Assembly: GCF_017815135.1 (NCBI RefSeq)
Contig: NZ_JAGJCF010000001.1
Location: forward strand, 434,001-498,000
Source: Jiella mangrovi
GTDB lineage: Bacteria; Pseudomonadota; Alphaproteobacteria; Rhizobiales; Rhizobiaceae
DNA length: 64,000 nucleotides
Reading direction: 5' to 3'
The stretch's first letter is position 1, and each line of letters begins with the position of its first letter. Under the pieces are notes generated by a model, which was given only the letters and a program-made list of their open reading frames with translations, was not told the DNA's origin and ran no database searches. Of the stretch, positions 8,511-64,000 are shown one piece after another. The position numbers and the translations under genes are program-made.

Positions 8511-8518
8511 TGCCGTCC

Positions 8519-9070
8519 ATGAGTGTGCAGTTCGATTTCCGCAAAGAACTCATTACGATCATTCCCAACCTCCGGGCGTTCGCGACGTCGCTGGCCGGAT
8601 CGTTCGACCGCGCCGACGACCTCGTCCAGGAGACCCTCGTGAAGGCGTGGGACAAGCAGCACACCTTTCAGCCCGGAACCAACATGAAGGCCTGGCTATT
8701 CACGATCCTGCGCAACGAGTTCTACACCCAGATGCGCAAGAAGGGCCGCGAGGTCCAGGACGTGGACGGAATCCATGCCATGCAGCTGGCGGGCCATCCC
8801 GAGCAGCAGGGCCATCTTGATCTGCAGGATTTCCGCAAGGCCCTCGAACTTCTGCCCGACGACCAGCGCGAGGCCCTGATCCTGATCGGCGCTTCGGGCT
8901 TCTCCTATGAGGAAGCCGCCGAGATCTGCAAATGCGCCGTTGGCACGATCAAGAGCCGCGTTTCGCGCGCTCGTACGCGCATCGCGGAGATTCTCGGGGT
9001 GGAAGGCGACGGTGATTACGGGCCGGATTCGATCTCCAGCCAGATCATCGGGGTCGCGCCCGCCGCTTGA
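8519..9070 (+). CDS. ecfG: EcfG, ECF sigma factor of the general stress response
   Basis: A 183-residue extracytoplasmic-function sigma factor of the EcfG (ECF15) group. Region 2 is at about residues 10-75 (FDRADDLVQETLVKAWDKQ, then PGTNMKAWLFTILRNEFY). Region 4 is at about 110-165 (LPDDQREALILIGASGFSYEEAA, then GTIKSRVSRARTRIAEIL). No sigma region 3 is present. It directs RNA polymerase to GGAAC-N16/17-nGTT promoters. The start at 8519 (MSVQFDFRKEL) fits the GGGAG box at 8503-8507; an ATG at 8510 overlapping the nepR stop is the alternative. Activity is controlled by NepR and PhyR, both encoded next to it. Confidence 0.96.
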   Translation: MSVQFDFRKELITIIPNLRAFATSLAGSFDRADDLVQETLVKAWDKQHTFQPGTNMKAWLFTILRNEFYTQMRKKGREVQDVDGIHAMQLAGHPEQQGHLDLQDFRKALELLPDDQREALILIGASGFSYEEAAEICKCAVGTIKSRVSRARTRIAEILGVEGDGDYGPDSISSQIIGVAPAA

Positions 9071-14423: not shown

Positions 14424-14534
14424 GGTCTCACCTCATCGCTTCGCCCGGCCGACTCACGGCCTTTGCACTGCAACATAATCGCCCGACGAGCGGCGGCGAG
14501 CCACCCGGAATCTCGCGACGCGCCGAAACGGGCC

Positions 14535-15551
14535 TCAGTCGCGGTTGGCCACGGCCGCCTCGGCGAAGGTCGCCATGTCGCGGTGGCAGCGGGCGGCGGC
14601 CTTGACGATGCCGGCGGCGAGCGCCGCCCCGGTGCCCTCGCCGAGCCGCATGCCGAGGGCCAGAAGCGGCACCTTGCCCATGGCTTCGAGCGCCTTCATG
14701 TGGCCGCGCTCGGCCGAGACGTGACCGAACAGGCAGTGATCCAGCGCGCGGGGATCCAGCTTGTAGAGGACGGCGGCCGCAGAGGTCGCGACGAAACCGT
14801 CGACGATCACAGGCACGTTCTGATGCCGCGCGCCGAGGATCGCCCCGGCCATTGCGGCGATCTCGCGGCCGCCGAGCCGGCGCAGGACCTCCAGCGGGTC
14901 GGACAAATGGCCCTTGTGGAAGGCGAGCCCCTGATCGATCACCGCCGCCTTGCGGGCCAGCGCCTCCCCGGCCAGCCCCGTGCCGGCCCCAGCCCAGTCG
15001 GAGCCACTGCCACCGAAGAGCCCGGCATAGATCGCCGCGGCGACGGCGGTGTTGCCGATGCCCATCTCGCCGATGCAGAGAAGATCGGGCTTGTCCATCA
15101 GGACTTCCATGCCGAAGGCCATGGTTGCCGCGCAGGTCTTTTCGTCCATCGCGGCGGCTTCGGTGAAATCGTCCGTCGGGATTTCCAGGGCGAGATCATA
15201 GACCTTGAGAGAAAGATCGTAACTCGCGCAGATCTGGTTGATCGCCGCGCCGCCGGCCGCGAAGTTCGACACCATCTGCGCCGTCACCTCGGGCGGAAAA
15301 GCTGAGACGCCCTTGGCCGTCACGCCGTGATTTCCGGCAAACACGGCGACCAGCGGCCGGTCGACATGGGGCACGCCGCCCTGCCAGGAGGCGAGCCACT
15401 CGGAAATTTCCTCCAGCCGGCCGAGGGAGCCCGCAGGTTTCGTCAGCTCCTGCTCGCGATGGCGAGCGGCATGAGCCGACGGAATGTCCGCCCCGGGCAT
15501 GGATCTCACGAGGTCGCGAATGTCGTCGAAGGGAAGTCCGGTGGTGGACAT
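14535..15551 (-). CDS. cobT: Nicotinate-nucleotide--dimethylbenzimidazole phosphoribosyltransferase
   Basis: A 338-residue CobT enzyme that activates 5,6-dimethylbenzimidazole to alpha-ribazole phosphate for the lower ligand of cobalamin. Visible signatures are TKPAGSLGRLEEIS near residue 35, FAGNHGVTAKGVSAFP near 72, GEMGIGNTAVAAA near 165, and the catalytic-Glu segment MRLGEGTGAALA near the C-terminus. The ATG at 15551 has AAGGAG 7 bases upstream. The gene is divergent from cobS, a frequent pairing in this order; together they do the last nucleotide-loop steps. No cobalamin riboswitch is recognisable in the 95-base region between them. Confidence 0.96.
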   Translation of the reverse strand: MSTTGLPFDDIRDLVRSMPGADIPSAHAARHREQELTKPAGSLGRLEEISEWLASWQGGVPHVDRPLVAVFAGNHGVTAKGVSAFPPEVTAQMVSNFAAGGAAINQICASYDLSLKVYDLALEIPTDDFTEAAAMDEKTCAATMAFGMEVLMDKPDLLCIGEMGIGNTAVAAAIYAGLFGGSGSDWAGAGTGLAGEALARKAAVIDQGLAFHKGHLSDPLEVLRRLGGREIAAMAGAILGARHQNVPVIVDGFVATSAAAVLYKLDPRALDHCLFGHVSAERGHMKALEAMGKVPLLALGMRLGEGTGAALAAGIVKAAARCHRDMATFAEAAVANRD

Positions 15552-48773: not shown

Positions 48774-49412
48774 TCACCCCCTGGATGGCAAGTCTCCAAG
48801 CGGCCGATCACGGGCGATGCCTTGGAGGAAAATATCGACGCCCTCATTGACCAGTGCATCCAGCTCAGCCCCTCGGGGCGGCTCGGCGAGACCCAGAACC
48901 GCATCGCGGAGCCCATCGGCGACGATCATCGAGACGAGCATCATCGCAGCCCGTTCGGCCTGTTTGATGTCGATCCTGCCGTCCCTGCCGTAAGCCGCGA
49001 GCTGGTCGGCGAGCGGCCTGATCGCGAGGCGTTTGACGGTCTGGACATAAAGCTGCGAGACATGCGGAAAGCGCTGCGCCTCGCTCATGACGACGCGATA
49101 GGACGCGATCCCGTGTTCGGAGAAGGTGAGCGCGGCAAAGGCTTTCATGAAGGTCTTCAGCCACTCGGCCGGGCTAAGGCCGGGAGCGGCGGTGGTCACC
49201 GGGCCGACCGACCTCGTCACCATGGCGTGCATCACCGCTTCGAGAAGCGCCTCCTTCGACGGCACATGCCTGTAGATCGTCTTCTTCGACATTCCGGCCG
49301 CTGACGCGATACGCCCGACATTGGCGTCGGCAAAGCCGTGCTGCCGGAATTCCGCCAGCGCGCTCTCAAGCAGGGGTGGAGGCAGCTCGGTGATCGCTTT
49401 GTCGTCGCTCAT
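48774..49412 (-). CDS. TetR-family repressor, probable regulator of the adjacent P450 gene
   Basis: A 212-residue TetR protein. The DNA-binding domain covers about residues 8-55, with LAEFRQHGFADANVGRIASAAGMSKKTIYRHVPSKEALLEAV-type sequence; the recognition-helix piece is MSKKTIYRHV. An all-helical ligand domain follows. It is transcribed divergently from the CYP102 gene, and the 150-base region between them contains a perfect 20-bp palindrome. In Bacillus, CYP102 genes are repressed by the TetR protein FatR and induced by fatty acids, so an equivalent circuit is likely here. The start at 49412 fits the first conserved residues. Confidence 0.9.
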   Translation of the reverse strand: MSDDKAITELPPPLLESALAEFRQHGFADANVGRIASAAGMSKKTIYRHVPSKEALLEAVMHAMVTRSVGPVTTAAPGLSPAEWLKTFMKAFAALTFSEHGIASYRVVMSEAQRFPHVSQLYVQTVKRLAIRPLADQLAAYGRDGRIDIKQAERAAMMLVSMIVADGLRDAVLGLAEPPRGAELDALVNEGVDIFLQGIARDRPLGDLPSRG

Positions 49413-49449
49413 GGGCCGACTCTTAGACCGCGCTGCCGAAGCGGTCGAT

Positions 49450-49469
49450 TGGAAACCCATGGGTTTCCA
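49450..49469. promoter_or_regulatory. 20-bp perfect palindrome, probable TetR operator
   Basis: TGGAAACCCATGGGTTTCCA is fully self-complementary and lies 38 bases before tetR and 93 bases before the P450 gene. It is the only long palindrome in the divergent region and fits a TetR dimer site controlling both genes. Confidence 0.7.
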
Positions 49470-49562
49470 TCGGCGCACCCCGCTCCTATATCCCTCGCAA
49501 CGAACCGGCGCCCGCGAGACGCCAGGTCGAAGCTTCGACCGTCAAGCAGAGCGAGAGACGCC

Positions 49563-52500
49563 ATGAGCGATGTGATTCCGCGCCCGAAGGGCCTGCCACT
49601 GATCGGCAATCTGCCCGAGATCGATCCTGAGGCTCCCGTCCAGAGCATGATTCGATTGGCAAAGGCCAATGGCCCCCTGTTTCGCCTGGACATCCCCGGC
49701 AACAGCCTCGTCATCGTCGGCAGCCAGGCGCTCACCGACGAATTATGCGACGAAACCCGGTTTCAAAAGGCGCTGCACCGGCCCCTGGAGGAAGCGCGCA
49801 CGGTGGCCGGCGACGGTCTCTTCACCGCCTATGACGAGGAGCCGAACTGGGGCAAGGCGCACAGATTGCTGATGCCGGCCTTCGGTCCCTTGGGCCTCAG
49901 ATCGATGTTCGACCGGATGCTCGACATCGCCGAGCAGATGATGGCGCGCTGGGAGCGTTTCGGCGACGGGGCGGTGATCGACGTCGCCGACAACATGACG
50001 CGTCTCACACTCGACACGATCGCGCTCTCGGCCTTCGACTTCCGCTTCAACAGCTTCTATCAGAGCGAGCTGCATCCCTTCGTCAACGCCATGTCCCGGG
50101 CGCTGGAGGAGTCGGGCCGGCGGGCGCGCCTGCCCCATGGCGTCGGCCGTTTGAACCTGCTTCGCAACCGCCTGTTCGAATCCGACACGCGGGTCCTGCG
50201 CGAGGTCGCCGACCGCCTCATCGAAGAGCGCATCCGCGATCCGCGTCTCGGCGAACGCGGCGACCTCCTCGACCGCATGCTGACCGCCAGGGACCCCGAG
50301 ACCGGCGAGACTCTCAGCCGGGAGAATATCGGCTATCAGATGATCACCTTTCTGGTGGCCGGGCATGAAACCACCAGCGGGCTTTTGAGCTTTGCGACCT
50401 GGCTGCTCTTGAAGCATCCCGAAACTCTGGCCAAAGCCAGGGCACATGTGGACGACGTGCTCGGGGGTTCGACGCCTCGTTTCGAGGATATCGGCCGCCT
50501 CTCCTATCTCAAGCAGATCCTCGAGGAGACGCTGCGCTTGTGGCCGACTGCCCCGGCCTTTGGCGTCCATGCGCGCGAGACGACGACGATCGGTGGCCGC
50601 TACAAGGTCACGCCGGAGGATGTCCTTCTCATTCTGACGCCCGTTCTGCACCGCGACCCCGCCGTCTGGGAGGCGCCCGAGCAGTTCCGGCCGGAACGCT
50701 TCGCCCCGGATCAGGCCGCCAAACTGCCGCCGAATGCCTGGAAGCCCTTCGGCAACGGGCAAAGGGCCTGCATCGGTCGCGGCTTTGCCATGCAGGAGGC
50801 GGTGCTGGTGCTCGCCTTGATGCTGCAACGCTTCGACATCGCGCTCGCCGATTGCGACTATGCGCTGGTGGTGAGCGAGACGCTGACACTCAAGCCGAAA
50901 GGGCTGCGCATTCATGCGCGCCGCCGCGATACGGGTGACAGGGCGGTGGCGCGAACGCAAAGCCCGCGCCCTGCCGAGACCCCGGCGTCGGTCGCCTCGG
51001 CAAAACCGGCCGTGCCGCAGGCCGATCTCGGCCCCCTCACCATCCTCTACGGCAGCAATTCGGGCACCAGCGAAGCCTTCGCCCAGCGCATCGCCGGGGA
51101 GGCCGTCGCCCAAGGCTATGAGGCAACCTCCGCTCCGATGGATCAATATGCCGAGGGGCTGCCGAAGGCCGGGCCGCTCATCCTCGTCACGGCCTCCTAC
51201 GAAGGCCAGCCCCCCGCCAATGCCGGGCGCTTTCTCGCGGCGATCGAGGATCTGCCGGCGGACGCGCTCGCCACGCGCCGCTTCGCCGTCTTCGGTTGCG
51301 GCAATCGGCAATGGGCACGCACCTATCAGGCAATCCCCAAACGTGTCGAGAAAGCGCTGACGAAGGCGGGCGCAAAAGCCCTTCTGCCGCGCGGCGAAGG
51401 CGATGCCGCCGGCAATATCTTCGGCGATTTCGAAAGCTGGTCCGGCGCGCTGTGGCCAGCGCTTGCCGGCGCCGAGGGGCGCCAGGCGAGCGGCGGGGAC
51501 CTTGCGTCTCTCAAGGTCGATATTCGCTCCGGCGTCCGCGAGCGCGCGCTGAAGCTCGACGAGATGCAGCGCGCCACCGTCGTTACGAACCGTGAGCTGG
51601 TCGACATGACCAAAGACGGCGCCCGGTCGAAACGGCACATCGAAATCGCCCTGCCTCAAGGGATAAGCTATCGCGCCGGCGACTATCTGGCGGTGCTGCC
51701 CAGCAATCCGCCCCAGACGGTGCGGCGTGTCCTGGCGCGCTTTTCCCTCGCGCCCGATGCCGAGATCGTCATCAAGGGCGCGCCGGGTGTGCCGTCCTCG
51801 CTGCCGGTGGACCGGCCCGTGGCGGCCGAAACCCTGTTTGCGGACTATCTCGAACTGCAGCAGCCGGCGACCGCCGGTCAGGTCGCGGCCCTCGTCGAGG
51901 CGATCGCCTGCCCGCCGGAACGGGAAGCCGCCAGGCACCTGTCGGATCCCGAAACCTATGCGGCGGAAATTCTGGGCAAGCGCGTCACCCTGCTCGACCT
52001 CCTGGAGCGGTTTTCCTCGGCCGACTTCGCCCTCGGCGCCTTCATCGCCGCCATGCCGCCGATGCGCTCCCGGCAATATTCGATCGCCTCCTCGCCGCTC
52101 GTCGACCCGGCCCGCTGCGCTCTGAGGGTCTCGGTCCTCTCCGCGCCCGCCTTGGGCGGCGCTCATCGCCATGAGGGGGTCGCTTCGACCTTTCTGGCGC
52201 GCCTTGCCGAGGGAGACAGTTTCGGGGCCGCCGTCCGGCCAAGTCAGGTCGGATTCCATTTGCCTGAGGATCCGACACTTCCGATCATCATGGTCTGTGC
52301 CGGCAGCGGCATCGCCCCGTTCCGGGGCTTCATCGAAGAGCGCGCCGCCTTGCAGCAGGCCGGGACGGCGATCGGTCGGGCGATCCTCTTCTTCGGGGTG
52401 CGCGATCCCGAGATGGATTTTCTCTACCGGGACGAGCTGGAGCGCTGGCAGGGCGCCGGCGCCGTCGCCCTGCGAATGGCGTTTTCTGAAACACCCGGGG

Positions 52501-52739
52501 ACGGCGTCGTTTATGTGCAGGATGCGATCTGGCGCGACCGTGCCGAGATCGCCAAGCTGTTTCGCGCCGGCGGCCGCGTCTTCGTCTGCGGCGACGGCAC
52601 GCGGATGGCCGCCGCGGTGCGAGACACGTTCCTGCGCATCTATCAGGAGGCCATGAATGCAAGTCGCGAAGCCGCTGAAGCCTGGGCCGAGAAGATCGAG
52701 CGCGAGGCGACCCGCTACGTCGCGGACGTGTTCGGCTAG
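49563..52739 (+). CDS. CYP102-type self-sufficient cytochrome P450/NADPH-P450 reductase
   Basis: A 1058-residue fusion like P450 BM3: fatty-acid (sub-terminal) hydroxylase with its own reductase. Heme domain, about 1-470: GDGLF with Phe87 at the position of the substrate-gating Phe of BM3, AGHETT at 266-271 (oxygen activation), an EETLRLWP ExxR helix, and the heme ligand Cys403 in FGNGQRACIGRG. An Ala/Pro-rich linker precedes the FMN domain (ILYGSNSGTSEAFA from about 493). The FAD/NADPH part shows RQYSIASSP and MVCAGSGIAPFRGF. Colinear and full length. The start at 49563 matches the family N-terminus. It is probably under the divergent TetR repressor; a methyltransferase follows after 87 bases. 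Confidence 0.96.
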   Translation: MSDVIPRPKGLPLIGNLPEIDPEAPVQSMIRLAKANGPLFRLDIPGNSLVIVGSQALTDELCDETRFQKALHRPLEEARTVAGDGLFTAYDEEPNWGKAHRLLMPAFGPLGLRSMFDRMLDIAEQMMARWERFGDGAVIDVADNMTRLTLDTIALSAFDFRFNSFYQSELHPFVNAMSRALEESGRRARLPHGVGRLNLLRNRLFESDTRVLREVADRLIEERIRDPRLGERGDLLDRMLTARDPETGETLSRENIGYQMITFLVAGHETTSGLLSFATWLLLKHPETLAKARAHVDDVLGGSTPRFEDIGRLSYLKQILEETLRLWPTAPAFGVHARETTTIGGRYKVTPEDVLLILTPVLHRDPAVWEAPEQFRPERFAPDQAAKLPPNAWKPFGNGQRACIGRGFAMQEAVLVLALMLQRFDIALADCDYALVVSETLTLKPKGLRIHARRRDTGDRAVARTQSPRPAETPASVASAKPAVPQADLGPLTILYGSNSGTSEAFAQRIAGEAVAQGYEATSAPMDQYAEGLPKAGPLILVTASYEGQPPANAGRFLAAIEDLPADALATRRFAVFGCGNRQWARTYQAIPKRVEKALTKAGAKALLPRGEGDAAGNIFGDFESWSGALWPALAGAEGRQASGGDLASLKVDIRSGVRERALKLDEMQRATVVTNRELVDMTKDGARSKRHIEIALPQGISYRAGDYLAVLPSNPPQTVRRVLARFSLAPDAEIVIKGAPGVPSSLPVDRPVAAETLFADYLELQQPATAGQVAALVEAIACPPEREAARHLSDPETYAAEILGKRVTLLDLLERFSSADFALGAFIAAMPPMRSRQYSIASSPLVDPARCALRVSVLSAPALGGAHRHEGVASTFLARLAEGDSFGAAVRPSQVGFHLPEDPTLPIIMVCAGSGIAPFRGFIEERAALQQAGTAIGRAILFFGVRDPEMDFLYRDELERWQGAGAVALRMAFSETPGDGVVYVQDAIWRDRAEIAKLFRAGGRVFVCGDGTRMAAAVRDTFLRIYQEAMNASREAAEAWAEKIEREATRYVADVFG

Positions 52740-53636: not shown

Positions 53637-53693
53637 AGACGCCAGCGACACCGTGGCATCAGCCGCCAGTTCGATATGGTGAGAGAGGCCGGA

Positions 53694-54323
53694 ATGGAGC
53701 CGATGAAGCGCGAGGCGACTGCGAGGATCTGTCTTGTCGGCAACGCGCCGACACGCGAGGACCATTCTCGCGAGATCGATGCTGCAAAGGTCGTCATACG
53801 GATCAACAACACGTTCGGCCACGGTTCGGTGACCGGAAACCGGACCACTCATCTCTTCCTGATCAATTGCGGTGGTCAGATGCGCGCATGGCTGGACGAT
53901 GCCGCTTTTAGGCAGATGCCGGCACTCCTTCAGGCCGAGGAAGTCTTGCTGCCGATCCATCCGGCCAAGGATGATCTGATCGAGCCGCCGCTCACACGTG
54001 ACGAGCGGTCCGCGCCGGACGGCCGGAACTACGCGGATGAGGCTCTTGCAACGCTTACATCCATGGGCAAGCGCGCTGCTCTCGTCGATGTCGAGCATTT
54101 CCTCAAGGCCTCCGCGATCCTCGGCTACGCGCGGCCGGAACGGGAGATGAGTGCACCTTCGACTGGACTGATCGCCCTCCTATGGGCGCTCGATACCTTC
54201 GCGTCACCGATCGCAATCTATGGCTTCGGCTTCGACGGATGGTCCGGCCATCGCTGGGACCGGGAAAAAGCCTTCTTCGAAGCGATGCACGAGGCCGGCC
54301 GCATTCGGCTCGGCTCAGTCTGA
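53694..54323 (+). CDS. GT29-like (sialyltransferase-fold) protein of unknown function
   Basis: A 209-residue protein. CLVGNAPTREDHSREIDAAKVVIRINNTFGHG resembles the nucleotide-sugar start of GT29 proteins (VGN.P and ID..D.ViR.N), and RTTHLFLINCGGQM and STGLIALLWAL continue that pattern, as does GFGFDGWSGHRWDREKAFF near the end. Close bacterial homologues have been named urease-operon accessory proteins, but no urease gene is near. A true transferase role is not shown. The start at 53694 is chosen for the AGAGAGG box 5 bases upstream; ATGs at 53676 and 53703 are alternatives. Confidence 0.68.
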   Translation: MEPMKREATARICLVGNAPTREDHSREIDAAKVVIRINNTFGHGSVTGNRTTHLFLINCGGQMRAWLDDAAFRQMPALLQAEEVLLPIHPAKDDLIEPPLTRDERSAPDGRNYADEALATLTSMGKRAALVDVEHFLKASAILGYARPEREMSAPSTGLIALLWALDTFASPIAIYGFGFDGWSGHRWDREKAFFEAMHEAGRIRLGSV

Positions 54324-54636: not shown

Positions 54637-55770
54637 ATGAAGAAGCCCATCGCCTTTTTCGTCCACCATCAGGGACGCGGCCACGCCAATCGCACCATGG
54701 CGATGGTGGAGGCTTTCTCTCGGGACCGGCCGGTGTCGGTGCTGACGGCCGGCCCCCATCTCTTCGACGGCTTCTCCCGCGATATCGAACTGATCGCTCT
54801 GCCCAACATGATCGGCGCAGCCGTTCCGACGAAGCGGCTTTATGCCGAGCCGACGCCCTCGACCCTGCACTGCGTGCCGTTGGGGCTGAAGGAGATGCGC
54901 GCGACCATGCGCGGGATCCTCGACCATCTCGACGCAAGGGACGTCGGACTGTTCGTCGTCGATGTTTCCTCCGAGATTGCCCTCCTGTCGCGGATCGCAT
55001 CGGTTCCGGCGGTGCAGATCCGCATGCATGGCGATCGCTCCGATGCCGGCCATGTCGGCAGCTACGAATCCAGCGTCGGCATGCTGGCGCCCTTCGACGA
55101 GAGCCTCGAGCAGGAGGACTATCCGGTCAATCTCAGGGCCAAGACCTTCTACAGTGGCGGGCTCTGCACGACGCGCGATCCCGTGCCGACGCGCGATGCA
55201 GCGCGCAAGGCCCTCGGTTACGGGGATAGCCGCGAGATCGTCGTCGTTCTCACCGGCGGCGGCGGCGCGGGAACGCCCTATGCACCGCTCACGGTGGGAG
55301 CGCGGGCCTTGCCGGATGCCGAGTGGCTGGTACTCGGGCCGACGCTGAAGGAAGGCCACGAAACGAACTTCGCCAATCTGAAAGAGCTCGGATGGGTGTC
55401 GAACGTCACCGACTATCTGGCGGCGGCCGATATCGTCATTGCCTCGGCGGGCGACAATACGGTCACCGAGATCGCAAGGGTCGGGCGGCCCTTCGTGGTC
55501 GTTCCGGAATGGCGCTATTTCGGCGAACAGGCCCGCAAGGCCGAAGCCCTCGCCCGCCTTGGAGCGGCCGTTCACGCCCCGCAATGGCCGGGCGACATCG
55601 CGGGATGGCAGCAGCTGATGGCGAAGGCGCGCAAGCTCGATCCGGACCACCTGACGCCGCTCTACGACCCGCAGGCGGCGCGGAAGGCTGCCAGCTGGCT
55701 GGAAGATCTGACCGACGAACTCTGGGACTCGGAAGGGAAGCACCTCGTGACGCCGATCGCGGCCCAATAG
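54637..55770 (+). CDS. Glycosyltransferase of the GT-B fold, MurG/GT28-like
   Basis: A 377-residue protein. The N-terminus IAFFVHHQGRGHANRTMAM has the Gly-His-x-x-Arg loop of GT28 and MGT-type enzymes. The C-terminal nucleotide-sugar domain shows VVVLTGGGGAGTP and YLAAADIVIASAGDNTVTEIARVGRPFVVVPE, similar in layout to the MurG donor site. Cytoplasmic, no signal. Acceptor and donor are unknown. It is convergent with the GT2 gene and opens the dense glycosyltransferase cluster. Confidence 0.82.
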   Translation: MKKPIAFFVHHQGRGHANRTMAMVEAFSRDRPVSVLTAGPHLFDGFSRDIELIALPNMIGAAVPTKRLYAEPTPSTLHCVPLGLKEMRATMRGILDHLDARDVGLFVVDVSSEIALLSRIASVPAVQIRMHGDRSDAGHVGSYESSVGMLAPFDESLEQEDYPVNLRAKTFYSGGLCTTRDPVPTRDAARKALGYGDSREIVVVLTGGGGAGTPYAPLTVGARALPDAEWLVLGPTLKEGHETNFANLKELGWVSNVTDYLAAADIVIASAGDNTVTEIARVGRPFVVVPEWRYFGEQARKAEALARLGAAVHAPQWPGDIAGWQQLMAKARKLDPDHLTPLYDPQAARKAASWLEDLTDELWDSEGKHLVTPIAAQ

Positions 55771-55846
55771 TGCGAGCGTCGCGTCATCGGGCACCCGGCT
55801 GAGGCGCTTGCGAGGAACCGAACACCGCATGCCTGTGCCCGGATCC

Positions 55847-56710
55847 TCAGCTGAACCGGACAGTCTCGGGCTGGCGTGCGGCTACGATCTCGGCTGACGT
55901 CGGTGAGCGCAGCGCGGTGAGCGTTTCGGCTTTCGACGACCACGCAATGAGGCCGCGCTCGGCAAACTGGCCGAGCCAGTAATCCATGCACCAGCGGCCA
56001 TGCTTGGCGTGAAACCGCCGGGCATTGGCGATGATGGCGTCGAAATGCTGAAGCGGCGGCATGTGGACGACATGGTGCTGGTGATAGGCCCGGGCACCCG
56101 CCGTCCAGTAAAGCGGCACGCCGGCGGGATCGAGCCGTGCGGCAAGATCGGTCTCCTCGCCCCCATAGCCGACGAAACTTTCGTCCATGCCGCCCAGCCG
56201 ATCCCACACCAGCTTTTTCAGCGCGAAGGACAAGCCCCAGAATTCGCCCGTCTCCGGCTCGCGTCTGAGACCGCGCAACGGCATCGGCGGTTTCGAGGGA
56301 TGGGGAACGCCGAGGGCGTCGAGCGTATCGAAATCGAGCGGATCGGTGACGGCGCCGCCCGGCAGGTAAAGCACCTCGCCGAGAAAAAGCCCCTCGCGGC
56401 CCTGGCATGCCGCCTCGAACCGCTCGATCAGAGGCGGCGACGCGATGCAGTCTATGTCGAGGAAAACCAGCGTTTCGCCCTTCGCCTCCCGGGCCGCGAC
56501 GTTGCGGGCCCGCGCGAGAGGCAGGGCCTCGCCGGGAACGAGCAGCTGGCGGATCGGCACGCCGATTTCGGGCAGGTCCGGCTCCTCGACCGCCTGCATG
56601 CAGGCGATGACCAGCTCGTCCGGCTTGCGGTTCTGGGCGGCAAGGCCCTTGAGCAGGTTGAGAAGCTGGAAACGCCGGTTGCGGATCAGCGTCAGGACGC
56701 TGACCGTCAC
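55847..56710 (-). CDS. Glycosyltransferase family 2 protein
   Basis: A 287-residue GT-A enzyme. It begins MTVSVLTLIRNRRFQLLNLLKGL (nucleotide-binding strand), with ALPLARARNVAAREAKGETLVFLDIDC giving the DxD metal site (DID) near residue 92. The galactosyltransferase-like C-terminal part is EFWGLSFALKKLVWDRLGGMDESFVGYGGEETDLAARL, whose GGEETDL piece holds the catalytic acidic residues. The ATG overlaps the stop of the upstream sucrose-phosphate synthase-like gene (ATGA at 56707-56710), so the two are coupled and probably act on the same molecule. Confidence 0.88.
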   Translation of the reverse strand: MTVSVLTLIRNRRFQLLNLLKGLAAQNRKPDELVIACMQAVEEPDLPEIGVPIRQLLVPGEALPLARARNVAAREAKGETLVFLDIDCIASPPLIERFEAACQGREGLFLGEVLYLPGGAVTDPLDFDTLDALGVPHPSKPPMPLRGLRREPETGEFWGLSFALKKLVWDRLGGMDESFVGYGGEETDLAARLDPAGVPLYWTAGARAYHQHHVVHMPPLQHFDAIIANARRFHAKHGRWCMDYWLGQFAERGLIAWSSKAETLTALRSPTSAEIVAARQPETVRFS

Positions 56711-58842
56711 TGGACGGTCAGCCGGCTGGCTCGCTGGCGAAAGTGGGCGACGCCTTCGATGATCCCGAGCGCATGGCTGCGCCGCGCGACGTAGGAATGG
56801 GCAAGATCCGAGCGGCTGGCCAACGCGTCGGAAAAATTCGCCACGATGATCGACTGAGGGAAGGTTCGCAGCATCTCGATGTCATTGCCGCTGTCGCCGG
56901 CAACGAAGACGGCATTTTCCGCAAGGGAGCGAATCTTGCGCAGATAAGTGATCGCCGCGCCCTTGGAGGCGCGCGCCGGCAGGATGTCCAGATAGCGACC
57001 GTGGCTGTAGATCACCGAGGCTCCGAGACCACGTGCTTCGAGATGCGCTCTGATCCTGGCGGCCACCTTGGTGTCGCCCTCGGCGAAATAGCTCAGCTTG
57101 TAATTGCGCTGCTCGAGCGGCGCCTGCGGGACGATCGTCTCGAAATCAGCCATCGCCTCGGCGACCGCTTTGCGGTTCCACCCCCTTGCGATGATGCGGC
57201 TCCAGTCGTCGTCTCGTCGATAGGTTACGCCATTGCCGTCCAGGAGATAGATCTCGGTGCCGACCGAGGAGATGATGATCTTCGGATTGGGCGCGTTCTG
57301 CTGCTCGAGGATCGACAGGGCGCTGTGGAGCGACCGGCCCGTGGCAACCGCAAAGTCGAGGGCGGCCTCCCGTTTGTGCCAGCGTGTGAAGGCCCTGATG
57401 CAGGTCTCCGACCCCGTCAGCGTATTGTCGATATCGCAGACGAGAAGCTGTGGCATGGAAAGGCCCGCGCGGCGAGAGGCGGGCGCCGCGAGCCGCGAGG
57501 CGAGCTTGGCGAAACGGGCCGCATGACTTGTCCAGTCGTAGCTCTCGACGGCTGCCGCGCCGTTTGCCGCGTATCGGGTATGAAGTTCGCGGTCCTGCAG
57601 GATTTCGCGACAGGCCGTCGCGATCATCTCCGGGCGTTGGGGATTGACCAGGCGACCATTGTCGCAGCGCTCGATGATGTCGTTCGGGCCACCGCTGTCC
57701 GTCGCGACGATCGGCAGGCCGCTTGCGGCGGCTTCGAGAAGCGTCAGGCCGAAGGGCTCGTTCAGTGCCGGGTTGGCGAAGACACCTCCTGTCTCCCGGG
57801 CCAGAGCATAGATGGCGGGAACGTCGGACGCCTTATGATCCTTCGGAATGGCGACTTTGCCGTAAAGATCGTGGCGATCGATCGCCTCGAGGATCGCGCG
57901 CATCTCGCTTTGGCCCTCGGTATCGAGATCGGCAATGACGCTCCTTGTGCCCGCGACGATTAAAAGATTGGCGTTTGCCGACAGCCACGGATCACGCCCG
58001 AAGGCTTCGACCAGCATGGGTAGGTTCTTCTTGGCAACGGGCCGGGCGATGGCAAGGACGATGAGCTTGCGCGGATCGCGGAGGAAGGGCGCAACCATCG
58101 CTCGCACGGCCCTGGTCGAGCGCGCTCCGCGATATGCCGCGAGATCGCTGCCGGGTTCGATGATGCGGATCTTGCCCGGATCGTAGTTGCGATAGGCGGC
58201 GTACTGAACCTCGGCTTCGTCGCGTGACGAGGCGACGACGAGATCGGCTTCGGCGAAAGCCCGCTCCTCGATCGCGATACGACGATCGAGATCGGAATGG
58301 CCTTGCGTCTCCCCGCGGCTTGACGGCATCGCGGCGCGCTTGACCCGACCGAGCGAATGGGCGGTGAAGACGAAAGGAATTCCCATTCGCCGGCGGATCG
58401 TCGCGGCGATGGTCGCCGCGTCGGCATAGTGGGCGTGCAGATAGGCGGGCGGCGTTTCCTGGCTGGCGAGAAAGGTGAGGAGCCCCTCGCTCAGGCAGGC
58501 GGCCTGCTTCCAGAGGTCTTCCTTGGCGAGATAACCGGGATGGTCGTCGGCCAGTCTCAGGATTTCCACCTTGTCGTCGATACGCTCCCAGCCTGGCCGG
58601 TATTGGGGACCGTAGCCACTCTCGAAGCCGCGGGTGACGATGACCACGCGCCTCACATCCGACCGATTGGCCTGCGCGCCGACGAGTTCGAGCAGATATT
58701 TGATATGCCCGCCGGTATCCGGCGTCAGCCCGTACGGGACATCGGTCGCCTGTAGGCATCCCTGTAAGGCGACGTGTACAATGAACAAACCGCGTCTTCC
58801 TTGAACCGACCGGCGTAATGACGAACTGCCGTCTCGATCCAT
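56707..58842 (-). CDS. Sucrose-phosphate synthase-like GT4 fused to a sucrose-phosphatase-like HAD domain
   Basis: A roughly 711-residue fusion. The N-terminal GT-B part (to about residue 455) resembles sucrose-phosphate synthase: VPYGLTPDTGGHIKYLLELV near 35-55, HAHYADA, TAHSLGRVK, ARPVAKKNLPMLVEAFG and NPALNEPFGLTLLEAAASGLP (donor Glu). The C-terminal part is a Cof/S6PP-like HAD phosphatase: LLVCDIDNTLTGSE (DxDNT near 468), FAVATGRS, YKLSYF and FVAGDSGNDIEML. One protein could thus make and dephosphorylate a sucrose-like glycoside. The ATG at 58842 is only 10 bases from the divergent GT4 start; a TTG at 58788 behind an AGGA box would leave room for promoters. Confidence 0.88.
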   Translation of the reverse strand: MDRDGSSSLRRSVQGRRGLFIVHVALQGCLQATDVPYGLTPDTGGHIKYLLELVGAQANRSDVRRVVIVTRGFESGYGPQYRPGWERIDDKVEILRLADDHPGYLAKEDLWKQAACLSEGLLTFLASQETPPAYLHAHYADAATIAATIRRRMGIPFVFTAHSLGRVKRAAMPSSRGETQGHSDLDRRIAIEERAFAEADLVVASSRDEAEVQYAAYRNYDPGKIRIIEPGSDLAAYRGARSTRAVRAMVAPFLRDPRKLIVLAIARPVAKKNLPMLVEAFGRDPWLSANANLLIVAGTRSVIADLDTEGQSEMRAILEAIDRHDLYGKVAIPKDHKASDVPAIYALARETGGVFANPALNEPFGLTLLEAAASGLPIVATDSGGPNDIIERCDNGRLVNPQRPEMIATACREILQDRELHTRYAANGAAAVESYDWTSHAARFAKLASRLAAPASRRAGLSMPQLLVCDIDNTLTGSETCIRAFTRWHKREAALDFAVATGRSLHSALSILEQQNAPNPKIIISSVGTEIYLLDGNGVTYRRDDDWSRIIARGWNRKAVAEAMADFETIVPQAPLEQRNYKLSYFAEGDTKVAARIRAHLEARGLGASVIYSHGRYLDILPARASKGAAITYLRKIRSLAENAVFVAGDSGNDIEMLRTFPQSIIVANFSDALASRSDLAHSYVARRSHALGIIEGVAHFRQRASRLTVQ

Positions 58843-58852
58843 ATGGACGCGG

Positions 58853-59899
58853 ATGAATACCCTTCGAGTCGCTCAGGTCGCACCTAACATCTTTCCAACT
58901 CCACCGGGTCTTTCGGGCGGAACCGAAAGAATTGTTCACGATCTGTCCAAGGCGCTGGAATCGCTGGACGTATCGGTCACGCTCTTCGCCCCGTCCGACT
59001 CCACCAGCGAGGTTTCACGCATCGGTGACCTGGAGAGCCTGAAGGGTCTGGAGGATCGATACGGGCAGGTCCCGCCCTCGATCCCGCAAGTCCTCGAAGC
59101 GGTGCAGATGGAAGCGCTGCGGCGGCGTCTCGATGAGTTCGACATCGTCCACTGTCATGGCGAGTTCTTTCACGCCGCGCTCCTCGGCGAACGGCGCAGG
59201 CACTCCCTGACAACGATCCACTGGCGCGTCGACGAACTCGACCGGGAGCTGTTCTTCAGAGCCTTTCCGGACCTGCCGGTCGCCGGCATATCGCGCAGCC
59301 AGCTCGCTCAGATCCCGGTGTCCAACCGCGCCGGCGTCGTCCATCATGGGATCGCCGAGGAGCGCTACCGGCTCGGGTCGGGAGACGGCGGCCACGCCGC
59401 CTTCATCGGCAGGATGACGGACCAGAAGCAGCCGGACGCGGCGATCCGCATCGCGGGCGCGGCAAACGTTGCGATCCGTCTTGCCGGTGCCGTCGATGTG
59501 GGCAATCCGACCTATTTCGACGAACGCGTGCGGCCGTTGCTCGGCGATGCGGCGCAGTTCGTCGGCCCTGTCGATGATACCGGCAAACAAGAACTTCTGG
59601 GCGGCGCCAAGGCACTTCTCTTTCCCATCGACTGGCCCGAGCCCTTCGGCCTGGTGATGATCGAGGCGATGGCCTGCGGAACCCCGGTGATTGCGTTCAA
59701 TCGTGGCTCCGTTCCCGAGGTCGTCGAGGAGGGCGTGACCGGTTTCGTCGTCGAGACCGAGGATCAGGCGGCGGCAGCGCTCGCGAAGGTCGGTGACCTC
59801 GATCGCAGGACGATCAGGCAGCGCTTCGAGGAACGGTTCACCGCAAGGCGCATGGCGGAAGACTATCTGGCGCTTTATCGCAAGCTGCTTGCGGCATGA
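58853..59899 (+). CDS. Glycosyltransferase family 4 protein
   Basis: A 348-residue GT-B enzyme. The N-terminal acceptor domain has VAQVAPNIFPTPPGLSGGTERIVHDLSKALE, i.e. the GGTER loop. The C-terminal donor domain has AAFIGRMTDQKQPDAAIRIA, LLFPIDWPEPFGLVMIEAMACGTPVIAFNRGSVPEVVEEGVTGF with the EPFGLVMIEAMACGTP donor motif. Cytoplasmic. It overlaps the next GT4 gene by four bases (ATGA at 59896-59899) and is divergent from the sucrose-phosphate synthase-like gene. Substrates unknown. Confidence 0.9.
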   Translation: MNTLRVAQVAPNIFPTPPGLSGGTERIVHDLSKALESLDVSVTLFAPSDSTSEVSRIGDLESLKGLEDRYGQVPPSIPQVLEAVQMEALRRRLDEFDIVHCHGEFFHAALLGERRRHSLTTIHWRVDELDRELFFRAFPDLPVAGISRSQLAQIPVSNRAGVVHHGIAEERYRLGSGDGGHAAFIGRMTDQKQPDAAIRIAGAANVAIRLAGAVDVGNPTYFDERVRPLLGDAAQFVGPVDDTGKQELLGGAKALLFPIDWPEPFGLVMIEAMACGTPVIAFNRGSVPEVVEEGVTGFVVETEDQAAAALAKVGDLDRRTIRQRFEERFTARRMAEDYLALYRKLLAA

Positions 59900-61098
59900 C
59901 GCAGGTCAGAACGGCGCTCATCGCCTGGGACTATCCACCGAGCGCTTCCGGGCTCGCGGTCGCAGCCCGGGAGGTCGCGGAAAGCCTTGCCGAAGCCGGC
60001 GTCGATGTCAGTGTTTACACACTGGATCGGGCTGACCGTACCTCCATCAATGGCGTAGGCATCATCGGCTGCTTGCCGGACAGGGTCGGCCTGTCGAAAT
60101 GGCTTCGGCGGCGGATGGCGCTGGGCCATCTCGTGGCACCGCGCTGGTTCGCCGCACGGATCGCGGCCGATCACCGGCGGAAGGCCTATGACGTTCTGGA
60201 GGCGACGAACTGGTATGCCCCGGCCGCACTTGCCACCCGGATCCCAGGCCTTGCCTTCGTCACCCGCCATTCGACACCGGCGATCTCCACCGGCGCGGTT
60301 TCCGGCAGCCTGCGGAACCGGCTCGATGGTCGCTTCGCCTGCCGGCTGGAAGCTGCAAGTGCCAGACGCTCGAACGGGCATATCTTCAACACCGAGAGCC
60401 ACGGCGAGAAGGTGACGGCGCTTTACGGGCTCGATGCCGACACGCCGCGCTCGGTGATCGGCCTGTCGCTGCCGCCCGAACGTCTCGCTCGGGCATCGGG
60501 CGCGGCCTATCCTCCGGAAAGGGAGGCAAACGGACCGCTCGAGCTTCTCTTCGTCGGCCGGGCCGAGGCGCGAAAGGGCTTCGACTGTCTGATGGAGGCC
60601 GTCGTGATTCTGGCGGCGGAGTTTTCCGGCGAACAGCGCCCGACGTTCCATCTGTCGCTCGTCGGAGTCCCGGAAGCGGATCTGCCGGAACTGTCAGACA
60701 AGGCCCGTCGCCATGTGACCTTGCTGGGCCGTCTTGACGATGTGGCACTCGACAGGGCCTATCGGGCCGCCGACATCGTCGTTGCGCCCTCGCGCTATGA
60801 ATCCTTCGGCCTCGTCTATCAGGAGGCGCTGGCTTTCGGCCGGCCGGTGGTGGCGCTTTCGGCCGATCCATCCGCACGGCAGGTGATCGGCGAAAGCGGC
60901 GCGGGCTTCCTGGCGACGGAGGCGAGCGGTGCGTCGCTGGCTGCGGCTTTGACGAAGGCGATTGGCGATGCCGCGCTGCGCCAGACGTTGCACGAGCGCG
61001 CCCTTGCGGCCGCCGGCCGGTTCACGCGGGCGAGCCTTGCGGCCGAGACGCTCGCACTTTACGACGCGGCGCGCGCCTTCAGCCGTCAGGGCCGATAG
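59896..61098 (+). CDS. Glycosyltransferase family 4 protein
   Basis: A 400-residue GT-B enzyme. It starts TALIAWDYPPSASGLAVAAREVAESL (acceptor domain). Later come LLFVGRAEARKGFDCLMEAV and the donor motif SRYESFGLVYQEALAFGRPVVAL. The start is coupled to the preceding GT4 gene; the 3' end overlaps the convergent zinc-ribbon gene by 13 bases. Two successive GT4 genes suggest that two sugars are added in turn. Confidence 0.9.
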   Translation: MTQVRTALIAWDYPPSASGLAVAAREVAESLAEAGVDVSVYTLDRADRTSINGVGIIGCLPDRVGLSKWLRRRMALGHLVAPRWFAARIAADHRRKAYDVLEATNWYAPAALATRIPGLAFVTRHSTPAISTGAVSGSLRNRLDGRFACRLEAASARRSNGHIFNTESHGEKVTALYGLDADTPRSVIGLSLPPERLARASGAAYPPEREANGPLELLFVGRAEARKGFDCLMEAVVILAAEFSGEQRPTFHLSLVGVPEADLPELSDKARRHVTLLGRLDDVALDRAYRAADIVVAPSRYESFGLVYQEALAFGRPVVALSADPSARQVIGESGAGFLATEASGASLAAALTKAIGDAALRQTLHERALAAAGRFTRASLAAETLALYDAARAFSRQGR

Positions 61099-62042
61099 GG
61101 TGTGAGCAGCGCGTCCCGCTCGAAAACGCGGCCTTTGCCGGGCAACAGCGCGTCGTAACGGGCCGAACGCGTCTCCACGTGAGCGCGGGTCAGATGATGA
61201 TCGATGGCAAGGTTCGGCGCGATGAAGCCGTCACGCCAGCCGCGCGGCAGCGCCGGCCGCTCATGCACCTTCCCCTCGAAGCGCACGCTGCGGTGATTGA
61301 GCCGATATTGCACGTCGGGATGAAGATCGGCGAGGACGCCGTCGACGAGATTGCGACGTAACAGGCCGATCGACAGCGCGCCTGCCGTCTCCGCCAGCGC
61401 GCATACCCTGCCCAAATCGTCCATGGTGCTCTCATCGAGGCTTTCGTCGGCGTCGAGCTGAAGCCCCCAACCGCACGTCATGGCGGCCTGTCCGCCATTG
61501 CGCTGTGCCGCGAAATCGCCTTCGAGCGGTCTCGCGATCAAGCGGACATTCCCGCCCAGCGGCGGGGTCTCCGGCGCGATGGTCGCATCGAGCATCAGGA
61601 CGATGTCGTCGAAGGACCGCTCCAACGCCGGCAGCCGAGGCGCGAGGTCTTGCAGATCGACAGGCCGGCACAGGATCACCAGCGAGACCGGTAAGGGTTC
61701 GATGCGGGCGAGAGGGAAAAGCTCGGCGATGGCGGGCAGTGACCGATAGGGACGGCAGAGCGCGTCCCGTTGGGTTTCGCCAAGCGGCGAGTGAGCAAGG
61801 CTACGCGACAGGGCAAGGGTTCGCAGGGCGTAGCTTTCGACGATGATCGGATCGCCCTTTTGGCAAACGAACCTCCCCTCGACCAGTCGCTCCCTCAGGA
61901 ATGTTTCGACGACCCCGCTGGCGAGAGCGCGGAGGTCGATCAGGATGCCGCAATGGCCGCATTCCCGGTAGGCTGAAGTGGCCTCGGTCGAGCAGCGTTC
62001 GCTCAGGCGGAAATCACGCGCCCCGCAGCATGGACAACGCAT
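61086..62042 (-). CDS. Zinc-ribbon protein with a GT2-like C-terminal domain
   Basis: A 318-residue protein. Residues 1-33 form a probable zinc ribbon: Cys3 and Cys6 (RCPCCGA), Cys28 and Cys31 (RECGHCG). From about residue 110 the sequence resembles GT2 glycosyltransferases of the WaaE/KdtX type: LVILCRPVDLQDLAPRL, then CGWGLQLDADESLDESTMDDL containing the DADES metal site, and HPDVQYRLNHRSVRFEGKVHE, the acceptor-side motif. The classic N-terminal nucleotide strand of GT2 is weak. The start at 62042 is supported by the ribbon. It is the only gene of this strand between the two GT4 genes and the ACAD gene. Confidence 0.72.
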   Translation of the reverse strand: MRCPCCGARDFRLSERCSTEATSAYRECGHCGILIDLRALASGVVETFLRERLVEGRFVCQKGDPIIVESYALRTLALSRSLAHSPLGETQRDALCRPYRSLPAIAELFPLARIEPLPVSLVILCRPVDLQDLAPRLPALERSFDDIVLMLDATIAPETPPLGGNVRLIARPLEGDFAAQRNGGQAAMTCGWGLQLDADESLDESTMDDLGRVCALAETAGALSIGLLRRNLVDGVLADLHPDVQYRLNHRSVRFEGKVHERPALPRGWRDGFIAPNLAIDHHLTRAHVETRSARYDALLPGKGRVFERDALLTPYRP

Positions 62043-62162
62043 CGTGTGTGTCCTGACCCTGAATCGGTCGGCGGTCTCCAAATCTCCTGCCGCTCGCCGG
62101 TGTCGGCAGGTGGATCGGTAGGTGGGAAGCGCAAAAGACTCTGACAGGTCACGCCGTTCTTT

Positions 62163-63302
62163 ATGCCAGCGCCCTATTATTGGGCGTGGCGAGATACTCC
62201 TCCCATCGCCATCCGCGCCCTTGAAGGGTCGCCCCGCACCCGAGAGCTCGATCTGATGAACCGCAGCATCCCCAATGGTTCCATGGGCGATTATCGAAGG
62301 TTCGAAAGCGCCTTCTCCGCCGCCCGCAACAATGGGCTTTTTCGACATGTCGGCGGTCTCTACGATGAGACCGGGCTGCTTGGCGACCGCTGGCCCCGAA
62401 TGCTGGAGCAGCTCAGGGCGGCGGGCGCCACGAACCTCAATCTCGGACGCCTTCTGGAAGGCCATGCCAATGCCGTTCAGCTCGTGCGGCTTTATGGTGA
62501 TACCGGCCAGCACGCTCTTCTGGAGGAGATGCTGGAAACCGATGCCATCCTCGGCGTCTGGGGAGCCGACGGCACGCCGCCGGCCAGCGTCGAAACCGGC
62601 GACGGGTCAGACAGGCTGCAAGGCGCCAAGCGCTATGCTTCGGGTCTCGGCATGGTCGCTCATGCGGTCGTTCCGATCGCAGGCGACGGCGGCGTGCTGC
62701 AGCTTTATCTCCTGCCCGTCGACGACCCTGCCCGTCAGGATCTGTCGGCCTGGACCGTGAGCGGCATGCACGCCTCTGCCTCCGGGCGCTATTCCTTCGA
62801 GGGCATCGCCATCGAAGAGCGCATGCGTCTCGGCGAGCCGGGGGTCTACAAGACCGAACCGTTCTTCGAGGGCGGGATCTGGCGCTGCGCGGCCGTTCAT
62901 CTGGGCGGTCTCGAGACCATCCTGGCCTTGACCGCCCGCCAGCTCGAAGCGAGCGGCCGGCTCGACCATCCCCTGCAGACCGAACGGCTCGGACAGGCGA
63001 TCCTCGCCGCGCGCACCGCGCGGCTCTGGGTCGAGGATGCCGCAAGGCGGATCGAGGCGCCGAAGAGCGGAGAGACGGTGCAGCATGCCGTTGCAGCCGC
63101 GTCCTATACAAGGCTGCAGGTCGAGGCCTCCGCGCTGAAGGTCATGGAAACCGCCCGGCGCGCTGTGGGCCTCTCATCGTTCGAGACCGATCACCCGTTG
63201 GAGGCTGCGATCGCAGACCTCTCAGTCTATCTCAGACAGGCAAACCCGGATGCGCTGCTGATCCACAAATGCCGGACGATGGCGGCGGAATATCTGCGAT
63301 GA
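62163..63302 (+). CDS. Acyl-CoA dehydrogenase-like protein
   Basis: A roughly 379-residue flavoprotein-like sequence (an ATG at 62256, MNRSIPNGSMGDY, is an alternative start). The middle beta domain of acyl-CoA dehydrogenases is visible: AILGVWGADGTPP, LQGAKRYASGLGMVAHAVVPI, and WTVSGMHASASGRYSFEGIAI. A helical C-terminal domain ends in LRQANPDALLIHKCRTMAAEY. The usual C-terminal IYEGTN-like motif near the catalytic base is not seen, so it may act on an unusual substrate. It overlaps the deacetylase gene by four bases (ATGA), which suggests a shared pathway. Confidence 0.8.
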   Translation: MPAPYYWAWRDTPPIAIRALEGSPRTRELDLMNRSIPNGSMGDYRRFESAFSAARNNGLFRHVGGLYDETGLLGDRWPRMLEQLRAAGATNLNLGRLLEGHANAVQLVRLYGDTGQHALLEEMLETDAILGVWGADGTPPASVETGDGSDRLQGAKRYASGLGMVAHAVVPIAGDGGVLQLYLLPVDDPARQDLSAWTVSGMHASASGRYSFEGIAIEERMRLGEPGVYKTEPFFEGGIWRCAAVHLGGLETILALTARQLEASGRLDHPLQTERLGQAILAARTARLWVEDAARRIEAPKSGETVQHAVAAASYTRLQVEASALKVMETARRAVGLSSFETDHPLEAAIADLSVYLRQANPDALLIHKCRTMAAEYLR

Positions 63303-64000
63303 GCGAGACCTACGCGGGCTGGATCGCGCGCTCTGCCAACGCCCCCAAGGCCGAGATAAGCCGGCTGGTCGGAACCGGTGGTCTGGTCGTGCTCTCTCCA
63401 CATCCGGACGACGAGACTTTCGGCGCATCGGCGCTCCTCGTCGATGCGGGCCGTGAGGGCCGCGCCGTGGGCATCGTCGCAGTCACCGACGGCGAGGCCT
63501 CGCATCCCGGCTCCCGATCCGTTTCGAGGCCGGCGCTGGCGACCATCAGGCAGGCCGAACAGGAGGCGGCGGTCAGAGCGCTCGGGGTCGGCGAGGCCCG
63601 GTTCCTGCGCTTGCGATTACCCGACGGCGGCTCGGGCCGGGATCCGCGCTTTGCGGATGCCGCCAAGCGCGTTGCTCACTTCTGCGACGCAATCGGCGCG
63701 ACAACGCTTTCGGCGCCGCATCCCGACGATCCGCATCCCGACCATCACGCAACGGCGGCGCTCGCCGCGGCGGTGCGCGAGCTCCGCCCGCGCTTGCGGC
63801 TTCTCTACTACTTCGTATGGTCGATGCGACTTGCCGACGAAACGCCGTATCGCGGGGCCGATCTTCTGCCTTTCAGACTGACGGTCGACCGGGCGGCCAA
63901 GGCCCGTGCTACCGCCTGCCATGCCTCGCAGCTCGGCGCCGTGATCACCGATGATCCGGACGGTTTCACGCTGCCGCCATGGTTTTTGGAAGCGCAGACC
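63299..64000 (+). CDS. PIG-L (LmbE-type) deacetylase, C-terminus beyond the window
   Basis: The first 234 codons of a PIG-L family N-deacetylase, open to the last base. LVVLSPHPDDETFG at about 29-42 is the zinc-binding HPDDE motif (His35, Asp38). A second ligand set is APHPDDPHPDHHATAALAAAV, with the HPDH piece typical of the family, about 110 residues later. Members remove N-acetyl groups from GlcNAc-containing glycosides such as mycothiol and bacillithiol precursors. The start overlaps the stop of the ACAD-like gene. Some relatives carry a further methyltransferase domain; whether this one does cannot be seen. Confidence 0.9.
   Translation, partial: MSETYAGWIARSANAPKAEISRLVGTGGLVVLSPHPDDETFGASALLVDAGREGRAVGIVAVTDGEASHPGSRSVSRPALATIRQAEQEAAVRALGVGEARFLRLRLPDGGSGRDPRFADAAKRVAHFCDAIGATTLSAPHPDDPHPDHHATAALAAAVRELRPRLRLLYYFVWSMRLADETPYRGADLLPFRLTVDRAAKARATACHASQLGAVITDDPDGFTLPPWFLEAQT

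Follow-up and report, generated by a model that had tools for sequence, protein, structure and literature searches.

Gene Content of the Cluster

The 64,000-nucleotide stretch of the Jiella mangrovi genome analyzed here (contig NZ_JAGJCF010000001.1 of assembly GCF_017815135.1, positions 434,001 to 498,000; hereafter the window) carries at its right-hand end a group of glycosyltransferase (GT) genes followed by genes for an acyl-CoA dehydrogenase (ACAD)-fold flavoprotein and a PIG-L deacetylase. Judged from its sequence, this is an uncharacterised, modular and partly plasmid-borne gene set, predicted to serve the formation of a modified oligosaccharide or glycoside. No published account of it was found in the open-licence literature, in agreement with a preliminary description of the region that knew of no characterised pathway with these genes. 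The genes are listed below (window coordinates unless preceded by a locus number; aa, amino acids; SPS, sucrose-phosphate synthase; the modules are defined in the next section).

53676..54323, plus strand: ST29, GT29 (sialyltransferase)-like protein, 215 aa (PF00777, 33.7 bits)
54637..55770, plus strand: A, GT28/MurG-like glycosyltransferase, 377 aa, module 1 (PF04101, 39.2 bits)
55847..56710, minus strand: B, GT2 "galactosyltransferase-related" protein, 287 aa, module 1 (PF10111, PF02709)
56707..58788, minus strand: C, SPS-like GT4 fused to a HAD (S6PP) phosphatase, module 1 (PF05116, 215.7 bits)
58853..59899, plus strand: D, GT4, 348 aa, module 1 (PF00534, 81 bits)
59896..61098, plus strand: E, GT4, 400 aa, accessory member (PF00534, 91 bits)
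61086..62042, minus strand: F, zinc-ribbon and GT2-like (DADE) protein, 318 aa, accessory member (CPCC/CGHC and DADE motifs)
62256..63302, plus strand: G, ACAD-fold flavoprotein, 348 aa, module 2 core (AlphaFold2 (AF2) model, monooxygenase-like sequence profile)
63299..64000 (window end), plus strand: H, PIG-L deacetylase domain of a PIG-L/NodS-like methyltransferase fusion (PF02585, 81.7 bits)
About L002:10564-11718, minus strand: I, GT2, convergent with H, beyond the window

Open reading frames (ORFs) and profile matches bear out the eight genes and the domain calls first proposed for positions 54637-64000. The core of that interval stands, but its edges do not. To the left, the GT29-like ORF at 53676-54323 is, by sequence comparison, a recurrent member of the cluster, with homologs within or adjoining module 1 in L033, L034, L054, L071, L076, L085, L089, L211, L212 and L214. 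To the right lie the remainder of the fusion H, whose full ORF of 452 aa (L002:9300-10658) stops 657 bases beyond the window end, and gene I. Pfam and NCBIfam profile searches gave no match for the F protein, homologs of which are kept in L029, L033, L034, L054, L071, L211, L212 and L214.

The three 4-bp overlaps noted previously were found at C/B (56707-56710), D/E (59896-59899) and, if H starts at ATG 63299, G/H (63299-63302). The divergent starts of C and D, described as 10 bp apart, had to be revised. The true start of C is most likely TTG 58788 (693 aa) and not ATG 58842 (711 aa), because an AAGGAA Shine-Dalgarno sequence lies 8 nt upstream, the L028 and L033 homologs start there, and an ATG stands at the matching position in the six non-Jiella loci compared. 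The C/D gap is therefore about 64 bp, the value of 10 bp having depended on the choice of start. The start of G is probably ATG 62256 rather than 62163, in agreement with the J. pelagia annotation, and that of F is probably ATG 62042.

Two Modules and Their Distribution

Gene neighbourhoods were compared in 23 loci and then in 80 named loci, the best 80 of 381 relatives in a genome scan. By gene content the cluster consists of two modules, module 1 (C, A, B and D) and module 2 (I, G, PIG-L and the NodS-like methyltransferase); the preliminary description had rightly seen the genes as linked but had missed this split, treating them as a single pathway set. All four genes of module 2 were present in 72 of the 80 loci, across several phyla, and in L086, L117, L119, L123, L125, L127, L131 and L148 one to three of them were unrecognised, some at contig ends. 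The hosts are mostly Alphaproteobacteria, together with Advenella, Granulosicoccus, Bacteroidota (Pedobacter, Hymenobacter, Fibrivirga), Cyanaurora, Eremiobacterota and one PVC genome, in whose locus PIG-L was unrecognised; on the one Deinococcus plasmid examined the ACAD-like gene adjoins PIG-L. PIG-L and the methyltransferase are fused into a single ORF in Aurantimonadaceae/Tianweitania, in Advenella and in Pedobacter. These groups lie in three distinct regions of the ACAD tree, whose starred branches force at least three changes in the state of the fusion, among which losses are possible.

Module 1 occurs as an operon C-A-B-D on plasmids of Paracoccus, Sulfitobacter and Roseomonas, and in Sphingomonas as C-A-B-D-pyruvyl transferase followed by a GT2. 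A sulfotransferase was found near or within module 1 in four loci (two checked by Pfam), and E, F and the GT29-like protein accompany it in Aurantimonadaceae, Tianweitania, Methylobacterium and G056. C is present in 12 of the 80 loci. The two modules adjoin each other in the window and J. pelagia, and likewise in Fulvimarina, several Aureimonas, Aurantimonas Leaf443 and Tianweitania. As the last four share this layout with the window, the arrangement, on this comparison, is not due to chance, and the expectation that the genes stay together in related genomes was borne out. The J. pelagia plasmid NZ_CP114028 (L028/L073) carries the same genes, with an ACAD-like protein 89% identical to G. In this record A, C, E, H and an Mfd-like gene are each broken by frameshifts, which are probably sequencing errors and possibly signs of decay.

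In two Pedobacter loci and in Methylobacterium WL119, A, B and D sit with module 2 and C is missing from the locus. The Pedobacter genes D, G, H, A, B and I form an isolated island, and the best matches of Pedobacter A, B and D in the window genome are A, B and D of the window (31, 42 and 29% identity, respectively); for A the match is reciprocal, window A also retrieving Pedobacter A. Taken over the loci compared, the core of module 2 is constant by gene content and its partners vary.

Some further features of these loci were recorded. Module 2 has another GT set (BcsA-like GT2, GT2 and GT4) as its neighbour in Paracoccus and Granulosicoccus and, to the extent that it was checked, in Advenella (L053:5392-8878; L098:6222-9737; L112:7751-9777 and 13599-15086). 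Plasmid-borne module 2 lies near stress-type genes in Paracoccus (L053) and Komagataeibacter (L057): catalase and DUF892; DUF4142, general stress protein and CBS proteins. A record named "Bacillus sp. 2B10" (L142, L216) contains both modules and an ACAD-like gene that groups with Sphingomonas; the name is probably wrong.

Co-Occurrence of the Modules

Co-occurrence was scored in genomes of relatives (n = 101) and of the class (n = 240), giving 340 unique genomes. The ACAD-like gene was found in 21 of the 101 relatives, SPS-HAD in eight and both in six; the corresponding figures for the class sample were three, two and two of 240. SPS-HAD with neighbouring A, B and D was present in seven of the 340 genomes, all of them ACAD-positive and with all four module 2 genes. 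Module 1 was thus present in 7/23 ACAD-positive genomes and shown in none of the 317 ACAD-negative ones (Fisher p 2.5e-9, common descent ignored), and any SPS-HAD in 7/23 and 2/317, respectively (Fisher p 8.3e-8, again ignoring common descent).

The converse was followed from the 68 loci lacking C, of which 50 were picked for genus spread and 48 genomes scored. SPS-HAD was encoded elsewhere in 22 of these 48 ACAD-positive genomes and A was present in 25; in 21 of the 22, Granulosicoccus being the exception, A lay no more than about 5 kb from SPS-HAD on the same contig. These distributions suggest that module 1 depends on module 2, and not vice versa.

Predicted Properties of the Proteins

C contains the HAD motifs DIDNT, SSVGTE, SKG and GDSGND, the GT-B motif EPFGLTLLE, and HSLGxxK; the GT-B and HAD motifs have assigned functional roles. 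Its best PDB matches were 2r60, the SPS of H. orenii, for the GT half and the sucrose-phosphatase 1s2o for the HAD half.

H carries the PIG-L motifs HPDDE and HPDH and the methyltransferase motif GCGEG. PF05401 (NodS) was matched with 27.1 bits by the window gene and 49.4 bits by that of Paracoccus, above the cut-off of 24; the scores for the NCBIfam NodS equivalog, 34 and 50.4 bits, were far from its cut-off of 300. In the synthesis of Nod factors, NodS methylates only after deacetylation by NodB (PMC5080398). This order, together with the recurrence of the PIG-L/methyltransferase fusion, suggests by analogy that deacetylation is followed by N-methylation on one sugar. The earlier proposal of a deacetylated product is thus supported, and extended to an amino sugar that would be N-methylated as well, because the partner of PIG-L is a conserved and often fused NodS-like methyltransferase.

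G was modelled with AF2 at a pLDDT of 94.2 from an alignment of 51 sequences. The model has the ACAD fold, so that the original ACAD-like label is right for the fold; by sequence profile G appears nearer to flavin monooxygenases than to acyl-CoA dehydrogenases (DszC 81.9, TdsC 81.0, MsuC 72.4, best ACAD 59.7 and DnmZ 54.9 bits). A hand alignment to the MCAD and IVD motifs placed Ala/Pro and an invariant Gly of G at the positions of the catalytic glutamates, MCAD Glu376 and IVD Glu254, so that by this alignment G would lack both. The suggestion that the product is possibly acylated was not supported: no acyltransferase was identified among the conserved genes, and the profile of G favours DszC, TdsC and MsuC over acyl-CoA dehydrogenases. 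A review of N-hydroxylating flavoenzymes names AlnG as a putative ACAD-like N-hydroxylase (PMC7347517).

The ten proteins showed no clear membrane helix. Their highest 19-residue hydropathy values were 1.02-1.75, the usual membrane-helix cut-off being 1.6, and the maximum of 1.75 lies inside the methyltransferase domain. A soluble intracellular product is therefore favoured.

EcfG-Type Promoter Motifs

The EcfG motif GGAAC-N17-20-GTT, from a study of Sphingomonas melonis Fr1 (PMC6599016), was sought in the 250 bp upstream of 199 operon leaders from the 80 named loci and 21 module-1/SPS loci. It was found ahead of 29 leaders, a link to stress promoters in relatives that the preliminary description had missed. 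The background rate in 250-bp windows was 1.25%, and of 1664 other ORFs 27 had the motif upstream. The matches were ahead of I (19/68), C (6/33) and D (4/24); there were none ahead of the 35 G leaders or of A, F, GT29-like and other leaders. Matches at C were confined to the loci outside the 80 (0/12 versus 6/21), as were those at D (0/16 versus 4/8). When 90 permutations of the boxes were run on 193 leaders (18 module-1 loci included, L054, L207 and L213, all three motif-free, left out), the EcfG motif ranked first with 29 matches, followed by the same box with TTG (21) and the next with 12, the median being two. A narrower, strict form of the motif was found ahead of 8 of the 158 leaders in the 80 loci, with a background of 0.37%. 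In G056, which belongs to the same family as the window, one EcfG motif precedes C.

The window contains six matches to the motif, none within the cluster. A looser match near G (62259-62282, minus strand) lies inside the coding start of G, the window having five such matches versus 2.9 expected. Control of the window cluster by EcfG was rejected, since the motif was not found at its leaders. Genes for regulators of the general stress response lie in the same window, about 45 kb from the cluster:

7207-8001, minus strand: PhyR
8292-8510, plus strand: NepR
8507-9070, plus strand: EcfG-like ECF sigma factor

In S. melonis Fr1 the operon #3505-3509, made of overlapping genes, was EcfG-dependent by RNA-seq; the #3505 promoter was confirmed by lacZ and classed as a putative indirect EcfG target, and the five genes are labelled, in order, glycosyltransferase, predicted glycosyl transferase, predicted glycosyltransferases, glycosyltransferase and exopolysaccharide biosynthesis protein (PMC6599016). 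This order, matched by annotation alone, may be that of Sphingomonas module 1. The match holds if the labels stand for COG0438, COG4671, COG1216, COG0438 and COG5039.

Proposed Pathway and Alternative Explanations

From the gene content, conservation, fusions, co-occurrence and motif enrichment observed in relatives we infer a set of reactions, a product and a protective role. Our preferred reading, held tentatively and with somewhat less than even confidence, is that the two linked modules make one soluble modified oligosaccharide for stress survival. C would link a hexose to fructose-6-phosphate and then dephosphorylate the product to a sucrose-type, non-reducing disaccharide; by analogy, mannosylfructose chemistry with GDP-mannose in place of UDP-glucose as donor is equally possible for C. 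A, B and D would extend the disaccharide, in the window also with E, F and the GT29-like protein. I would then add an N-acetyl amino sugar, the PIG-L domain of H would take off the acetyl group, the NodS-like domain would methylate the freed amine, and G would act as a flavin monooxygenase oxidising the product, perhaps at the methylated nitrogen. In some alphaproteobacteria both modules stand behind EcfG-type promoter motifs. The product is probably anionic in relatives that have a pyruvyl transferase or a sulfotransferase, since these enzymes are added there.

Several observations weigh against this reading. The label of C as a SPS fusion holds for its GT and phosphatase motifs but not for the curated scores, which remain below the cut-offs of TIGR02472 (414.3 bits, cut-off 576) and TIGR02471 (186.2 bits, cut-off 209.75); a fold search with I, a GT-A GT2, returned generic GT-A GT2 matches with no donor specificity; and by fold alone G ties between ACADs and monooxygenases. 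The two ACAD-negative genomes with SPS-HAD are G024, where C is alone within 18 kb, and G074, where a 7.6-kb contig is too short to tell the partners, and negative scores are limited in that only the best first-look candidates were scored (at most four per genome for SPS and eight for ACAD in the class sample). SPS-HAD was absent from 26 of the 48 ACAD-positive genomes scored; module 2 therefore does not require the module 1 enzyme C. Overall the EcfG motif precedes 6/33 C leaders and 4/24 D leaders, and 11 of the 19 matches at I come from Paracoccus and so are not independent, although their spacer sequences differ. No EcfG motif was found at the 81 leaders of L073-L091 (Jiella, Fulvimarina, Aureimonas and near kin), at the seven leaders of the window's cluster and flank, or in the Sphingomonas module-1 loci examined, and this absence from the window clade and Sphingomonas, together with the untellable G074, weakens the one-pathway reading. 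Co-occurrence could also reflect habitat or mobile replicons instead of one pathway.

The main rival, a serious contender that we nevertheless find rather doubtful, takes the modules as two independent stress-related pathways travelling together, one leading to a sucrose-type oligosaccharide and the other to a separate N-methyl amino-sugar compound. It is favoured by the 26 genomes just mentioned, by plasmids of Sulfitobacter, Sphingomonas and Roseomonas with module 1 and no module 2 within the 16-24 kb stretches examined, by the 45 kb separating the modules on one Paracoccus sediminicola plasmid, and by the many plasmid-borne copies. It fits poorly with A, B and D lying within module 2 in Pedobacter and Methylobacterium WL119 with no SPS at the locus, and with module 1 never having been shown without module 2 among the 340 genomes, one of them untellable. 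That the GTs build an exported glycan, the locus serving a surface polysaccharide, a capsule or lipopolysaccharide (LPS) decoration, is unlikely. The many glycosyltransferases, the pyruvyl transferase and sulfotransferase neighbours in relatives, the BcsA-like GT2 that neighbours module 2 in Paracoccus, in Granulosicoccus and in Advenella, and the labelling of S. melonis #3509 as an "exopolysaccharide biosynthesis protein" (PMC6599016) would agree with such a role. However, no flippase, polymerase, priming transferase, exporter or ligase was recognised among the conserved genes, no search having been aimed at them, and the ten proteins have no clear membrane helix. In addition, LPS core assembly is not known to involve a sucrose phosphatase domain. 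A bacillithiol-like pathway to a low-molecular-weight thiol, with a GT, a PIG-L deacetylase and a cysteine ligase, is very improbable: BshB1 and BshB2 are the best NCBIfam relatives of the PIG-L domain (49 and 48 bits), but these scores are far below the cut-offs of 182 and 195, BshC (PF10079) was not found in the window genome (0/1; control search positive in 3/14), and neither the methyltransferase nor the ACAD-like partner suits such a pathway. Anti-phage defence was considered and rejected, the ten proteins giving one PADLOC match, mad2 with 41 bits on the methyltransferase domain.

The one-pathway reading ties a conserved GT operon to a deacetylase/methyltransferase/oxidase module and so offers a concrete candidate pathway and product class. 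If true, it would add a new reaction to the ACAD-fold enzyme family and mean that Nod-factor logic is reused outside symbiosis. About 40% of the EcfG-dependent genes in S. melonis Fr1 could not be assigned a specific function (PMC6599016). In its fullest form, which we consider improbable as a whole, the product would be a widespread, uncharacterised stress metabolite, namely an oligosaccharide, sucrose-headed and anionic in some lineages only, whose amino sugar is deacetylated, N-methylated and N-oxidised. Non-symbionts from several phyla would make it by chemistry like that of Nod factors, and the general stress response would induce it in a good part of the alphaproteobacterial carriers.

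Neighbouring Genes

A gene for an Mfd/TRCF-like helicase of 1127 aa (L002:11947-15330) adjoins the cluster. It was left out as a member, since among the loci searched its homologs were found only in the window flank, J. pelagia and G112. At 49338-52739 (plus strand) the window encodes a fusion of cytochrome P450 with a flavodoxin/FAD reductase (P450 BM3-type), adjoined by a TetR-family gene (48774-49478).

Comparison with Known Systems

The S. melonis Fr1 operon #3505-3509 resembles Sphingomonas module 1 in order, annotation and overlapping genes (PMC6599016); the comparison was made by annotation alone, and the window clade differs in lacking the EcfG motif. With the class D flavin monooxygenases (DszC, TdsC and MsuC, and nitrososynthases such as DnmZ) G shares the ACAD fold, and its best profile matches are among them. 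When the structures are aligned, G is 16-18% identical to DszC, TdsC and MsuC, and no flavin reductase was recognised among the conserved genes. C has the GT4 and S6PP HAD domains of the SPS/phosphatase fusions, with their motifs; it differs in scoring below the curated cut-offs and in having further glycosyltransferases beside it in module 1. The chemistry of Agrobacterium mannosylfructose-phosphate synthase is just as possible for C. Nod systems use a deacetylase of the NodB fold and a NodC with membrane helices, whereas the cluster has PIG-L, a GT2 without membrane helices and an added ACAD-fold protein, no NodA being seen. Like the NodC-NodB-NodS set, the cluster brings together the genes of a GT2, of an N-deacetylase and of a methyltransferase of the NodS family.

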